Origin: Clavibacter capsici | GTDB lineage: Bacteria > Actinomycetota > Actinomycetes > Actinomycetales > Microbacteriaceae | NCBI RefSeq assembly: GCF_001280205.1 | Contig: NZ_CP012573.1 | Coordinates: 2,976,001-3,040,000 of the forward strand | DNA length: 64,000 bases | Reading direction: 5' to 3' | In this document: piece after piece, positions 1,649 through 6,968 of the stretch | Numbering within the stretch: position 1 is the first letter of the stretch | Layout: every line of letters begins with the position of its first letter | Made by a program: the position numbers and the translations under genes | The notes under the pieces: generated by a model | Told to the model about the DNA's origin: nothing | Database searches by the model: none | What the model saw: the letters and a program-made list of their open reading frames with translations, nothing else

Positions 1649-2254
1649 CTACTCCCCCGACTGCCCCGCGTCCGTCACCGTCACGTCGGTGTGCACGAAG
1701 TTGAGGTACGAGCGGGAGGCCGTGGGGCCGCGCTGGCCCTGGTAGCGGGATGCGTACTCGCCGGATCCGTAGGGCTTCTCGGCGGGCGACGACAGGCGGA
1801 AGAAGCAGAGCTGGCCGATCTTCATCCCGGGCCAGAGCTTGATGGGCAGCGTCGCGACGTTCGACAGCTCGAGCGTGACGTGGCCGGAGAACCCGGGGTC
1901 GATGAAGCCGGCGGTGGAGTGCGTGAGGAGGCCGAGGCGGCCGAGAGAGCTCTTGCCCTCGAGGCGCGCGGCGACGTCGTCGGGCAGCGTGACCAGCTCG
2001 TACGTGGATCCGAGGACGAACTCGCCCGGGTGCAGGATGAACGGCTCCCCCGGCTTCGACTCGATGAGGCGCGTGAGCTCGGGCTGGTCCTCGGCGGGGT
2101 CGATGTAGGGGTACTTGTGGTTGTCGAACAGCCGGAAGAAGCGGTCGATGCGCACGTCGATGCTCGCGGGCTGCAGCATCCCGGGGTCGTACGGATCGAG
2201 GGCCACTCGTCCGGCGTCGAGCTCGGCGGTGATGTCACGGTCGGAGAGGAGCAC
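1649..2254 (-). CDS. dcd: dCTP deaminase, probably bifunctional dCTP deaminase/dUTPase
   Basis: A 201-aa protein matching Dcd over its whole length. The conserved core [20 protein letters not shown] (residues about 112-131) carries the family's catalytic Glu and the Thr/Ala-containing loop. It is nearly the same as in the actinobacterial (M. tuberculosis) enzyme, which turns dCTP into dUMP in two steps. It supplies dUMP for thymidylate synthesis and keeps dUTP low. The GTG start is supported by a TAGGCT hexamer six bases upstream, implying a leaderless mRNA. The gene is convergent with the oxidoreductase and divergent from the tRNA. Confidence 0.95.
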
Positions 2255-2260
2255 GGCAGG

Positions 2261-2266
2261 AGCCTA
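2261..2266 (-). promoter_or_regulatory. -10 element of dcd (leaderless)
   Basis: TAGGCT on the minus strand, six bases before the GTG of dcd; there is no Shine-Dalgarno sequence in between. Confidence 0.55.
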
Positions 2267-2335
2267 CCGGCGCGGGGTGGCGCCCGGCCGGACTCTTGCT
2301 AGGCTGTGGTCTCGACCCGGCTCCAGGCCGGTCGC

Positions 2336-2409
2336 GCGAGTGTAGTTCAATGGTAGAACTTCAGCTTCCCAAGCTGATAGCGCGGGTTCGATTCCCGTCA
2401 CTCGCTCCA
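2336..2409 (+). tRNA. tRNA-Gly (anticodon CCC)
   Basis: A complete 74-base cloverleaf. The acceptor stem GCGAGTG pairs with CACTCGC, the D-loop is AGTTCAATGGTAGAA, and the anticodon stem TCAGC/GCTGA encloses the loop TTCCCAA, giving anticodon CCC (reads GGG). The T-arm GCGGG-TTCGATT-CCCGT and an encoded 3' CCA at 2407-2409 complete it. The composition changes abruptly to AT-rich right after the CCA, which suggests this tRNA is or was an integration site. Confidence 0.96.
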
Positions 2410-2536
2410 TTTATTTAGCAAGTCGTGCATATAGTTGCCGCTAAATTTAGCATTTACTTATGCTGGGGCGCTTTGCAATAGATTCTTCGAGCGCGACTAC
2501 GCTAGTGTCGATATTTGAAATATATAATCGCGGCCC

Positions 2537-2821
2537 CTAGTCGTCCGACATTATGGAACCAGTTTCTGTAATCCAAACTCGCTTACCTTCGCTAATGCGA
2601 GTGGCTACGACGGACAGTTCGGGGTCCGAGATAGAAGCCCCATTGCCTACCGCACTAACGGCTTCCAGCAAAGCTCTTCTGACTTCAGCGACAGGCCGTC
2701 CCGCATATTTGGATGAGACCGAAGCCAATGCCGCACCAAGACGCTTGATCTGCTCCGCTAGCTGACGTGGAAAGTCGGGATTCATGTGAAATGTCATAGT
2801 AAGAAGTCTATCCAGTTGCAT
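2537..2821 (-). CDS. small hypothetical protein of the tRNA island
   Basis: About 94 aa from the ATG at 2821 (weak AAGGG three bases before it). The frame is open up to an ATG at 2971, and an internal ATG at 2785 is also possible, so the start is uncertain. The sequence from LAEQIKRLGAALA through VRRALLEAVSAVG looks like two amphipathic helices, followed by a short strand-like end (VWITETGS). I recognise no family. It lies downstream of the 477-aa gene in the same direction and probably shares its transcript, so it may be a partner or antitoxin of that protein. That role is inference only. Confidence 0.5.
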   Translation of the reverse strand: MQLDRLLTMTFHMNPDFPRQLAEQIKRLGAALASVSSKYAGRPVAEVRRALLEAVSAVGNGASISDPELSVVATRISEGKRVWITETGSIMSDD

Positions 2822-2978
2822 GAACCCTTGGCAATCACCTAGATGCAAGAGACTCGTGCCGCTACTACGCCGGCAAGCGGCAGCACGCTTGCGGGCATCT
2901 AGTCTCGACGCTTGGCCATCCGGGTCCCTAGTACGCCAAAAATGGCCCGGACGGAGGTCCATGCACCGCATGGCTAGA

Positions 2979-4412
2979 TCAGATGGCCGCCTCCGCTAGG
3001 CGCTTTACACCGGAATCAAATCGCAATTGATCCGGCGTTCCAGAAAATTGACGAATAGCAGACATGAGGGCGCGATCGGTGTTGCTCGTCAGTTTCGGTT
3101 CAAGCAGATCTAGAAGCAGCGTCCATTGATTTCGGCCTACGTTACTAGTGAGTAGCGACGCTACTGACGGCTCCAAAAAGAGCCGAAGGGCAATCCGCGC
3201 GTCCGATGTTGAGAATCTGGAAATCATTTTCTTATATGCAACGACGGCGGCAACACTGACCCCATAGCCATTACCCAAATAGCAATCAACAATGACGCGA
3301 ACATATCGCTCGCGAACCTGCGCGGGCACGTCCCCTTGTTCACCGGCAAGATCAAGCACTCTCCGCGCAGGCGTGGGCTCATTGTAAAAATTGTCAGAAC
3401 CGTGATGAGCACTACTCAAGAGATCGAGAGCATCACTCATATCTATGGCGCGCACCTCATTGGTCAGGTAAGCAGATCCGTTTACAAGGTCAATCAGCTC
3501 GCGCGCTGCGCTAGCGAAATCCGTTTCAGCACTCGCGCTTGCCCGACCGTGACGTAAGCCGAAGCTTTTTCGCGCCGCGTCTTGGACGAATGGCCACAGA
3601 CGCGGCCAGAGAAGACGAACATTGTCGGCGACTGTGGGCGTTCGATCCGGAGCAGTGTAGAGACCGAACAGCCCATTTGCGAGCGTATCAGCCCGGTCTA
3701 AGGGCAGCTGGTCGAAGAACGCTGCCGCGGAATCCACAGCGGGCTGATCAAGAACGTCTCTCTTTATATTTGCGAGTAGTCGGCCTGTGTGGGCGGTCAC
3801 ATTATCCGTTGGGACATTGATGACTTCGCGAATGCACAGCTGCAAGAAAGTCACGAGCTCAAGGCCCGTAAGTTCGTTTTGGTTCGGATGGGCGGCACTC
3901 GCATGATTGCGCATGAATCGGATATTGTCGAGACGCGCAAATCCTACGTCACTAAGTAGCCCAATGGTCATCGCGGCCCGTAGGAGACGTGCATCATCAA
4001 TAGACGGTAGGTCCTCTTCGGCTTTGAGCGCCTTCCGCAGGTCAGAGTTCGTTCCCGCAGCAATGTCAAAAAAGTATGCGATGTCAAACCCGGTCACACG
4101 GGATCGCAATGCTGAAACCAGTTCATCCCATAGGTAGTTCAACGCAGCATCGAACAACCCCACGGTGGCTGCCGCCACCATCTTTGAGACGTAATGTGCG
4201 CGAGAGCGAATAAGGGGGTCAAGCTCTTCGAGGACGCTTCCGACATTACTTACCATCGCTGCGCGCTCGCCGACAGGCACAAAGAGTCGCTCAGTCGGCA
4301 GGCCAAATTGCTCTAGCATGCCCCTGACGCCCTCTTCGAATCTAACGAGATCGGTAGCAGGCGTTCCAGCGTGGGCTACACGAGCGCTTGCGTCTGGATT
4401 ATTGTCGGTCAT
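2979..4412 (-). CDS. hypothetical protein with a HEPN-like motif (candidate defence or RNase protein)
   Basis: A 477-aa protein, mostly helical, with no signal peptide. Residues 161-195 read as two helices around RNHASAAH (R168, N169, H175), the R-N/x-x4-6-H signature of HEPN ribonucleases found in abortive-infection and toxin proteins. The next helix (LELVTFLQLCIREV) fits that fold. I recognise no domain in the C-terminal half (about 250-477). Codon use is AT-rich and unlike the neighbours, in an island at a tRNA. The ATG is preceded only by a weak GGCGG. Recognition of the protein as a whole failed; the HEPN reading rests on one motif and its helical setting. Confidence 0.6.
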   Translation of the reverse strand: MTDNNPDASARVAHAGTPATDLVRFEEGVRGMLEQFGLPTERLFVPVGERAAMVSNVGSVLEELDPLIRSRAHYVSKMVAAATVGLFDAALNYLWDELVSALRSRVTGFDIAYFFDIAAGTNSDLRKALKAEEDLPSIDDARLLRAAMTIGLLSDVGFARLDNIRFMRNHASAAHPNQNELTGLELVTFLQLCIREVINVPTDNVTAHTGRLLANIKRDVLDQPAVDSAAAFFDQLPLDRADTLANGLFGLYTAPDRTPTVADNVRLLWPRLWPFVQDAARKSFGLRHGRASASAETDFASAARELIDLVNGSAYLTNEVRAIDMSDALDLLSSAHHGSDNFYNEPTPARRVLDLAGEQGDVPAQVRERYVRVIVDCYLGNGYGVSVAAVVAYKKMISRFSTSDARIALRLFLEPSVASLLTSNVGRNQWTLLLDLLEPKLTSNTDRALMSAIRQFSGTPDQLRFDSGVKRLAEAAI

Positions 4413-4746
4413 TCCGCCAAACTACCGGGGTAACAACGGGACTGACTATAGACAACCCTGCTTATTGGGCCTCCTCTTACCCCCAGAGCAGGGCACGCAG
4501 GACGCTCCTCAGGCGTCACGTCGTTGTGGGGCACAAGATTGACCCTCGCAACCGCGGAAGCCAAAATCGTCGTCGGCAGCACATCACGGAAATCCTCGAG
4601 GTACCTCCTTAACGCTACGCCTTCCGCTGTATCTCACACGTGTGTCATCGACGGGGTGAGGTGAGGATCGGATTGAGCGGAAGCTGATGACGCACACGCG
4701 CCGAGTTGGCGGGCACACCAGATCGACGTGCCATACCTCGGAGCAG
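4413..4746. other. 334-base gap without a recognised gene
   Basis: Upstream of the island gene, the minus strand has TATAGT (complement of 4445-4450) as a possible -10 box. The right part contains the short palindrome ACACGTGTGT near 4637-4646. Short open frames here lack ribosome sites and coding character. I see no terminator or RNA gene. Confidence 0.35.
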
Positions 4747-5087
4747 TCAGCGGGTCGCGCTGCTAGCCTCCGCCAGCAACGACGCCATCCCCGCCTCCGC
4801 AGTCGCCGCATCCCCATCCCGGATCGCGAAAGCCACCTGCTCATGGGTGTCGAGCGCATGCGGTCGCGGCGTCCGCGGCATCAGCCCCTGGTGCGTGCGA
4901 CCGCTCAGGACCTCCGTGATCACCTCGCGGAGGGCGCAGAACATGTCGTTGCCGCTGGCCTCGAGGATCAGGTGGTGGAACTCGATGTCGGCGGCGAGGA
5001 AGTCGACGAGGGCGCCGGCCTCGCCGAGGCCGCGGAGATCCACCGCGAGCTCGGCGATGCGCGTGCGCTGAGCAGCAGTCGCGGGAC
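4747..5087 (-). pseudogene. truncated second copy of gntR (FCD domain fragment)
   Basis: The sequence repeats the last third of the intact gntR gene at 6153-6493, with stop codons aligned at an offset of 1406 bases. Translated, it gives the C-terminal part of the FCD ligand-binding domain (VDLRGLGEAGALVDFLAAD onward) with a few changes near the end (FAIRDG for HAIRDG, EASSATR for EVSSAIR). The DNA-binding domain is absent: homology stops abruptly near 5087, where a different small gene ends. Roughly 4865-5075 is almost identical to the intact copy and the 3' part is more diverged, so the copy is either fairly recent or kept similar by gene conversion. No start codon has a ribosome site, so it is probably not a working gene. 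Confidence 0.85.
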
Positions 5088-5291
5088 TCAGTCCTGAGGC
5101 TCGTAGGTGCTCTGACGGGTTCCTCTGTCGTAGCGGAAGCCGATCGGATAGTGCGTGGTCAACGCGCCGTTCGGGAATCGATCGGTCACTTCCTCTGCGA
5201 AGTCGTGCGCCTCTTCGCGAGTGGCGAAGACGCCGAGGACGGTGTTGTCGGGTGACTCATCGTGCTGGACGATCCATACCTCAGAGACCAT
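5088..5291 (-). CDS. small DUF7336-like hypothetical protein
   Basis: A 67-aa cytoplasmic protein beginning MVSEVWIVQHDE. The pattern 'VWIVQHDESPDN..VLGVFATREEAHDFAEEV' followed by a GFRYDR strand resembles the small DUF7336-type domain (a strand-strand-helix module of unknown function); I recall this family but cannot confirm it. There is no clear ribosome site before the ATG. The stop codon abuts the end of the truncated gntR copy. It lies between the two gntR repeats and is divergent from the secreted-protein gene. Confidence 0.6.
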   Translation of the reverse strand: MVSEVWIVQHDESPDNTVLGVFATREEAHDFAEEVTDRFPNGALTTHYPIGFRYDRGTRQSTYEPQD

Positions 5292-5397
5292 GCAGCAACA
5301 GTAGGCCTGTGCACTCCAGCCCCGTGGAGCGGTTGCACTCTGACTGACTGCTCGCGACCCGGTCGGGTCGCCTACAGCAGAAGTCAGGAGAGCAATC

Positions 5398-6015
5398 ATG
5401 ATGAAGACCTTCATGGCCGCGATGACCGCAGCAGCGGTCGCGGGCGCGATGGCTCTAGCAGCACCAGCCGTGGCAGTCGAGAGGCCCCTCCCATCGACGG
5501 CCGTCACCGAGCATGCACCCGCGTACGACCCCCGCATCGCTCCACCTTCGTCGGGAGACCTGACGTGGGCCCAAGTAGAGGAGGTGACCGAGAGCGCCCC
5601 TTCGTACCGGGATCCCGCGACTCAGGCGTCCTCGGATGTCGATGCGGTCTCGTCAGGGGCGGGATGCACCATCAACACCGGCGACGTCTACAAGCGCGCG
5701 TCCGGTCGCGGCTTCCCCTATGGCGCTGTCGGGGGCAAGCCGACGACGACCTGCGGCACGCTCATGGTGCGCATGACGCAGACGACGACTCTCTACAAGA
5801 CAGTGTGGTGGGGTCTGCAGAAGGTGGCCGGCCCGTTCACCAGCTCGAACGTCGGTCAGGGAACGATCACGCAGAGGAATGTCATCCGGAAGTGCGATGA
5901 CCTGCGGGACACGACTTTCCGCATGATCGTGCGGAATACCGGGACCTTCCCGACCGGCTCCACGGGAACGGCATCCGCCTATGAGGAGAGCACCGAGGCC
6001 TGCGGCACCAACTGA
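5398..6015 (+). CDS. hypothetical secreted protein
   Basis: A 205-aa protein with a clear Sec signal peptide: MMKTF, a hydrophobic Ala-rich core, and a likely cleavage after AVA near residue 26. The mature part holds four cysteines (GAGC, TTTC, IRKC, TEAC), which could form two disulfide bonds outside the cell. AGGAG is six bases ahead of the first of two adjacent ATGs. I know no family for it. It is carried between the gntR direct repeats and is followed by a hairpin terminator, so it looks like an independently transcribed accessory gene. Confidence 0.75.
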   Translation: MMKTFMAAMTAAAVAGAMALAAPAVAVERPLPSTAVTEHAPAYDPRIAPPSSGDLTWAQVEEVTESAPSYRDPATQASSDVDAVSSGAGCTINTGDVYKRASGRGFPYGAVGGKPTTTCGTLMVRMTQTTTLYKTVWWGLQKVAGPFTSSNVGQGTITQRNVIRKCDDLRDTTFRMIVRNTGTFPTGSTGTASAYEESTEACGTN

Positions 6016-6036
6016 TCCCCAGCTCCCTCTGCGGCG

Positions 6037-6076
6037 GGGAGCCGGCCCGGCAGCGACACGTCCGGGTCGGCTCCTC
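6037..6076 (+). terminator. hairpin terminator after the secreted-protein gene
   Basis: GAGCCGGCCCGG (6039-6050) pairs with CCGGGTCGGCTC (6062-6073) with one G-T pair. The stem is GC-rich without a clear T-run, as is usual in these genomes. Confidence 0.55.
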
Positions 6077-6152
6077 GCGGGCGCGCATGACCGCATCGTC
6101 AGTGGCGTGCTCGCACCCCACGCATGGAGCGGGATACGCGGACATCGTCGGG

Positions 6153-6881
6153 TCAGCGGATCGCGCTACTGACCTCCGCCAACAACGACGCCATCCCCGC
6201 CTCCGCCGTCGCCGCGTCGCCGTCGCGGATCGCGTGCGCCACCTGCTCGTGCGTGTCCAACGCATGAGGACGCGGCGTCCGCGGCATCAGCCCCTGGTGC
6301 GTGCGACCGCTCAGGACCTCCGTGATCACCTCGCGGAGGGCGCAGAACATGTCGTTGCCACTGGCCTCGAGGATCAGGTGGTGGAACTCGATGTCGGCGG
6401 CGAGGAAGTCGACGAGGGCGCCGGCCTCGCCGAGGCCGCGGAGATCCACCGCGAGCTCGGCGATGCGCGTGCGCTGGGCAGCCGTCGCGTAGCGCGCCGC
6501 GAGTGACGCCGCCACCGGCTCGACCGCGCGGCGCAGCTGGGTGAGGGAGCGGAACTGGTCCGAGCGGCCGGGGCCGGTGAGGCGCCAGCGGATGATGCGC
6601 GGGTCGTAGACGTTCCAGCGATCCGGGCCCTGCACCACGAGGCCCACGCGGCGCTTCGGCACGATCAGCGCCATCGCCTCGAGCACGCGCACGCAGTCGC
6701 GCACCACCGTGCGGGAGACGCCGAAACGCTGCTGGAGGTCCTCGATGGTGAGGCGCGTGCCCTCGGCGAGCGTGCCGTCGACGATGTCGCGGCCGAGCTC
6801 CTCGATGATCCGGGTGGCCAGCACCGTGGCGGCGGGGACCGCGCCGGCGGGAGCCGAGGGTGGGACTGACTGCGTCGTCAT
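6153..6881 (-). CDS. gntR: GntR/FadR-family repressor of the gluconate genes
   Basis: A 242-aa regulator. Residues about 24-95 form the GntR winged helix (TIEDLQQRFGVSRTVVRDCV), and residues about 105-235 form the FCD ligand-binding domain with the metal/ligand residues of the family (DIEFHHLIL, THEQVAHAI). GGAGAGG just before the ATG fixes the start. It is divergent from gluconokinase and gluconate permease, so it very probably represses them and is released by gluconate or 6-phosphogluconate. Its 3' third is duplicated at 4747-5087. Confidence 0.9.
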   Translation of the reverse strand: MTTQSVPPSAPAGAVPAATVLATRIIEELGRDIVDGTLAEGTRLTIEDLQQRFGVSRTVVRDCVRVLEAMALIVPKRRVGLVVQGPDRWNVYDPRIIRWRLTGPGRSDQFRSLTQLRRAVEPVAASLAARYATAAQRTRIAELAVDLRGLGEAGALVDFLAADIEFHHLILEASGNDMFCALREVITEVLSGRTHQGLMPRTPRPHALDTHEQVAHAIRDGDAATAEAGMASLLAEVSSAIR

Positions 6882-6968
6882 CGTCCTCTCCGGGTGCGCG
6901 GCGACCGGCGGGCCGCCTCGATGAGCATAGGTCGCCGCTCCTGGGGTGGTCGTCGGAGCGCTCCGCAA

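Follow-up and report, generated by a model that had tools for sequence, protein, structure and literature searches.

What does a 477-residue protein do whose gene lies in an AT-rich island directly behind a tRNA gene of Clavibacter capsici? The gene occupies 2979-4412 on the minus strand (ATG start) of the 64,000-nucleotide stretch of contig NZ_CP012573.1 analyzed here, hereafter the window. An initial annotation, made from the sequence alone, had noted the octapeptide RNHASAAH (residues 168-175) between predicted helices and had proposed a HEPN-type ribonuclease (RNase) effector, with a small neighboring gene as its antitoxin or partner. We find that the N-terminal part of the protein (residues 42-203; 3804-4289, minus strand) is, with little room for doubt, a HEPN domain, and that it is followed by an all-helical C-terminal solenoid (residues 204-475; 2988-3803, minus strand) predicted to act as a sensor or regulator. 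The protein belongs to a widespread family, referred to below as the HEPN-solenoid family, which is unnamed in Pfam, NCBIfam and PADLOC.

Judged by its codon changes, the open reading frame (ORF) is a real gene under purifying selection, since synonymous changes (31) outnumber non-synonymous ones (9) in comparison with its closest copy, found in the congener G166 and 98% identical at the protein level. Third codon positions hold 33 of the 41 base differences between the two copies.

The RNHASAAH motif (R168-N169-x5-H175; 3888-3911, minus strand) is the predicted RNase active site, and its meaning derives from its conservation across the family and not from its occurrence. The protein contains three R-x4-6-H pairs, compared with 2.0 on average in its shuffles, a raw count at the level of chance. 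R168 and H175, however, are both kept in 92 of the 94 members of the non-redundant set, which rules chance out, and the other two pairs are found in 23/94 and 12/94. These members are the 94 rows, out of an alignment of 108 from which the partial L129 had been excluded, that were left below 90% identity; they form alignment A3, which includes L031, and alignment A2 comprises the 93 rows without it. The H175 column aligns in all 94 rows, but the histidine of two distant members from viral contigs (L127 and L128) is a chance alignment, and the count used is therefore 92/94. Both of these distant members retain the GLF/YD helix and the fold pattern, lack the R-N-x5-H motif and are encoded near a helix-turn-helix protein. 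The residue directly after R168 is N169 in 93/94 members, in agreement with the HEPN superfamily, where a polar side chain, most often that of N, D or H, is expected at this position, and a six-residue spacer between the arginine and histidine of a HEPN motif is on record in the part of PMC3710099 available to us.

In a confident structure model, R168 ends a helix (residues 155-171) and H175 lies in the loop that precedes the next (183-198), so that the two residues are not far apart within a HEPN-like bundle. The checks of residue placement and of homologues suggested in the initial annotation thus both came out in favor of its motif. A further helix (87-108) carries E97 in 88/94 members and R103 in 94/94, with an E-x5-R spacing; in helix 2 of many HEPN families, though not of all, a second conserved acidic residue is found, typically as Ex3[KR]. 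Because the C-terminal solenoid filled the structural match list of the whole model, a separate model of the HEPN domain was made and searched on its own. Within the match lists obtained, the top 18 structural rows for the isolated domain all belonged to the HEPN superfamily. Both features expected of that superfamily, the four-helix fold and the conserved Rx4-6H motif, are present. Whole-model Foldseek searches of PDB and BFVD gave no match at E 0.001, and a search for solved relatives returned one chance match by sequence (E 1.3) and none by profile. The protein is likely to be an active RNase.

The initial annotation had found that the C-terminal half resembled nothing it recognized. In the model, this half is instead an all-helical, ARM/HEAT-like solenoid, at scores that may reflect only a shared helical-repeat arrangement. 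Three of its residues, N341, E345 and P363, are strongly conserved and, if the regulatory role is true, offer direct mutants of the solenoid.

The 477-residue protein has no match in Pfam, NCBIfam or PADLOC (PADLOC-DB 2.0.0, 2023: 0 families at E 10), and membership in a family of any of these databases was rejected by scans of this protein and, for PADLOC and Pfam, of 93 members. The PADLOC scan of the 93 returned 13 families with one member each (best E 0.0019). In the Pfam scan, the noise-like matches SPG48 (4 members) and Transgly (3 members, E 0.00034) came ahead of DUF4145 (PF13643), which matched 2/93 members at E 0.1 or better and, with a best value of 0.004, stayed short of the Pfam gathering cut-off. 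PHROG 27609, for which no function is recorded, is the same family and matches residues 72-443 (E 2.4e-50). Literature searches on HEPN with defense or helical solenoids, on the E. coli accession and on the PHROG number yielded no paper that could be linked to it.

Pattern scans based on a single protein found nothing in the genome or viral contigs, and alignment A1 was used next. Family matches were found on 76 plasmid records, of which 48 are typed as conjugative, at 281 loci on genome contigs and on 28 viral contigs; two tblastn searches of phage records gave none. The plasmid copies include one from Rhodococcus jostii RHA1, with 52% identity over residues 36-471, and one from Streptomyces. 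In E. coli, the family is present in 50 of 5426 genomes (30 chromosomal and 20 plasmid copies). Matches were obtained in 4/299 Microbacteriaceae genomes, three of them full length, and PHROG 27609 matched 8/396 genomes of the window's phylum, mostly in the HEPN part alone, with 0/14 control genomes matching. From the best 80 of the 281 genome loci, which were those analyzed, 76 rows were kept, and these are labeled with 14 phyla; the one archaeal label rests on a single 6.5-kb metagenome contig. In the family tree, the Actinomycetota rows fall mostly together (2 changes needed), with Bacillota and Cyanobacteriota split, a pattern that is compatible with some transfer and proves none. Five shorter or differently built proteins (L004, L017, L018, L019 and L020), some of which stand alone at 246-260 residues, share profile similarity with the HEPN domain and carry motifs of the RN..AHP/GHP or RH..AHP type.

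The genomic setting of the window copy was then compared among 18 congeners. The gene sits in an AT-rich variable cargo segment (2410-4745) bordered on the left by tRNA-Gly(CCC) (2336-2409, plus strand; detected by ARAGORN, Rfam tRNA 73 bits). The content of guanine plus cytosine (GC) in 500-base windows is 51-59% across about 2250-4750 and 68-77% outside, as the initial annotation had noted in speaking of an island with foreign base composition. The tRNA-Gly gene is conserved in 18/18 congeners, and similarity to the window stops at about 2408-2415 in all but G166. Behind it, all 18 carry AT-rich cargo of 52-61% GC, whereas most of the DNA on either side lies at about 68-79%. The window's cargo is shared with G166 only, in which 2171 bases are 96.5% identical, and is matched in none of the remaining 16. 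Grouped according to the ORFs they share, the 18 cargo segments form 14 groups. The genus-wide right border is the 3' end of an intact gntR/FCD regulator gene (6153-6881, minus strand; start codon picked by eye from the ORF), with similarity beginning at 6148-6163 in 14/18 congeners and at 6198 and 6201 in two. In the last two, the 12 kb searched contained no match to gntR; their right edge was placed by hand from GC content.

To the extent that cargo proteins were scanned with PADLOC (20 of the 41 ORFs of at least 150 residues, taken from 13 genomes out of the 16 that carry a different cargo), 17/20 matched at E 0.001 or better, with at least one match in each of the 13 genomes. The matches include Septu PtuA/PtuB, PD-Lambda-2 parts, OLD/Gabija-like, Tmn-like, PDC-S06, PDC-S46, restriction methylases and AbiU-like proteins, and cargo proteins of the three other genomes are 52-85% identical to scanned ones. 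A control of 10 ordinary window ORFs gave 2 matches, one RecD-like (E 3.6e-20) and one weak. Many AAA models match each other's proteins, which makes the exact cargo rate unreliable and leaves the trend clear. The tRNA-Gly/gntR site, at 2410-6153 in the window and in loci L146-L162 of the congeners, is a variable, defense-rich cargo hotspot and a source of further candidates in the genus.

Several further observations concern this hotspot. A partial copy of the gntR 3' end (4746-5045, minus strand; 93% identity to 6152-6451, FCD domain E 7.9e-14) forms the right border of the window's own cargo, and another extra end is found in L159 (5131-5519, in addition to that from 9079 onward); they look as if cargo had been added stepwise at that side. 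Between the two gntR copies of the window lies a lower-GC ORF (5398-6015) for a probably secreted protein of 205 residues with a weak DUF4148 match only. The cargo of L149 (1453-4436) and L150 (1455-4435) encodes a thymidylate-synthase-like protein, an alpha-glutamyl/putrescinyl thymine pyrophosphorylase (clade 3) and an IrrE-type peptidase that matches PD-Lambda-2_B (the scan covered L149), and would represent a DNA-hypermodification-like module. A hotspot protein with a HEC-07 match adjoins a PDC-S06 gene in L154 (810-2408). A short-repeat scan of 2330-6920 showed no directly repeated tRNA end, and promoter and terminator scans were not usefully above shuffled sequence. The part available to us of a Clavibacter defense paper, found in the hotspot literature search, does not contain the words "hotspot", "tRNA" or "HEPN".

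We consider that the protein probably functions in defense or in competition between mobile elements. The mechanism that we favor, with somewhat less assurance, is that of a self-contained antiphage RNase of the abortive-infection type, combining a HEPN effector with a solenoid sensor. The HEPN part would cut RNA without a metal ion through R168, N169 and H175, probably as a dimer. The solenoid would hold the enzyme off and sense infection, either through a phage product or through an infection-linked change in the cell; RNA cleavage would then halt phage growth together with the cell. An antitoxin would be unnecessary, and the gene would move as cargo of plasmids, prophages and chromosomal hotspots. 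About an even chance may be given to the broadest form of this proposal, a one-protein immune system that is missing from the catalogs and close to pan-prokaryotic. In it, an N-terminal HEPN RNase would be restrained by an ARM/HEAT-like solenoid that doubles as the infection sensor, and plasmids, prophages and defense hotspots would spread it between phyla, with no antitoxin. If true, the PADLOC release used misses a common defense family that is present in E. coli and in genomes labeled with 14 phyla, and the protein would provide a one-protein case for studying the activation of a HEPN RNase by a helical solenoid.

The alternative that survives best, although we regard it as improbable, retains the RNA-cutting activity and assigns it to the mobile element and not to host defense, as a plasmid or prophage addiction factor or as a superinfection or competition factor. 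The conjugative plasmids and viral contigs described above fit this explanation, as does the mobile cargo of E. coli, in which genes for a BCCT transporter, a DUF2254 protein and a small site-specific recombinase accompany the family copies on both plasmids and chromosomes, and in which one copy shares a prophage with recE, racC and kilR. Annotated plasmid neighborhoods of family genes otherwise differ from one another. The window copy, however, is a solo chromosomal gene in a hotspot that is full of defense-type genes in the congeners, and no antitoxin of the kind that addiction would need was found at the family loci examined. Competition between mobile elements and defense are hard to separate. 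Less probable again is a HEPN fold devoid of RNase activity, in a protein of the MtlR kind that binds RNA or acts as a regulator: in the portion of PMC3710099 available, inactive HEPN groups have lost the motif wholly or partly, whereas here it is kept in 92/94 members.

The last alternative, that of a HEPN toxin in a two-gene toxin-antitoxin pair, turns on the small ORF of 94 codons at 2537-2821 (minus strand). The initial annotation was right that this ORF exists and has the same direction as the large gene. Its longest form (2537-2971, 144 residues) begins 8 bases past the stop of the large gene. It is probably a gene: compared with G166, it shows 4 synonymous and 2 non-synonymous changes. 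Its match to DUF6374 is weak (E 0.0026, below the family cut-off), and its hits in the other family loci examined have E 0.57 or worse; its two plasmid matches are in Dietzia and on one Streptomyces plasmid. Among the flanks of up to 6 kb at the 94 non-redundant loci, the commonest neighbor cluster, which from its sequence, judged by eye, we take to be a serine recombinase, occurs in 7 loci and the next in 5. Despite the adjacency of the two genes in both the window and G166, a toxin-antitoxin pair is very unlikely and the proposed antitoxin partner was rejected, because the small ORF is found in only 2/18 congeners, the two with this cargo, and in no other examined family locus, its plasmid matches are not among the family matches listed (40 of the 76 records), it is not an MNT protein by Pfam, and no neighbor is common to more than 7/94 loci.

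With a self-contained HEPN-solenoid RNase as our preferred interpretation, the protein can be set against known systems. It is linked to DUF4145 and related HEPN domains, as given in Table 1 of PMC3710099, by profile and motif similarity through the shorter relatives; L020 matches DUF4145 at E 0.0015, below the curated cut-off, and the 477-residue protein, which has no Pfam match of its own, differs in its C-terminal half. HEPN/MNT toxin-antitoxin systems (HepT/MntA; structures 7bxo, 6m6w and 5yep) lack the extra 270-residue solenoid, and no MNT antitoxin lies beside the gene. DefensePredictor led to four HEPN systems validated in E. coli, and a CBS-HEPN protein, DS-11, is also described (PMC13092281, available in part). 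Going by that portion of the text, DS-11 resembles the present protein as a one-protein HEPN system of E. coli, where the HEPN-solenoid family also occurs, and differs in its CBS domain; if one of the four validated systems belongs to the HEPN-solenoid family, the latter would already be validated and its novelty would change. The closest tested analog is Tha, an antiphage HEPN RNase of Staphylococcus aureus prophages that is triggered by phage (minor) tail proteins (PMC11087260, also available in part). According to that account, Tha has 301 residues, with a C-terminal HEPN domain (184-296) and an essential R-x4-H motif, and the 477-residue protein departs from this plan of about 300 residues with HEPN at the C-terminus: its HEPN domain is N-terminal, carries an R-x6-H motif and is followed by the helical solenoid. 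What the two would have in common is that a single protein, carried by mobile elements, joins a HEPN domain to a separate part thought to sense.
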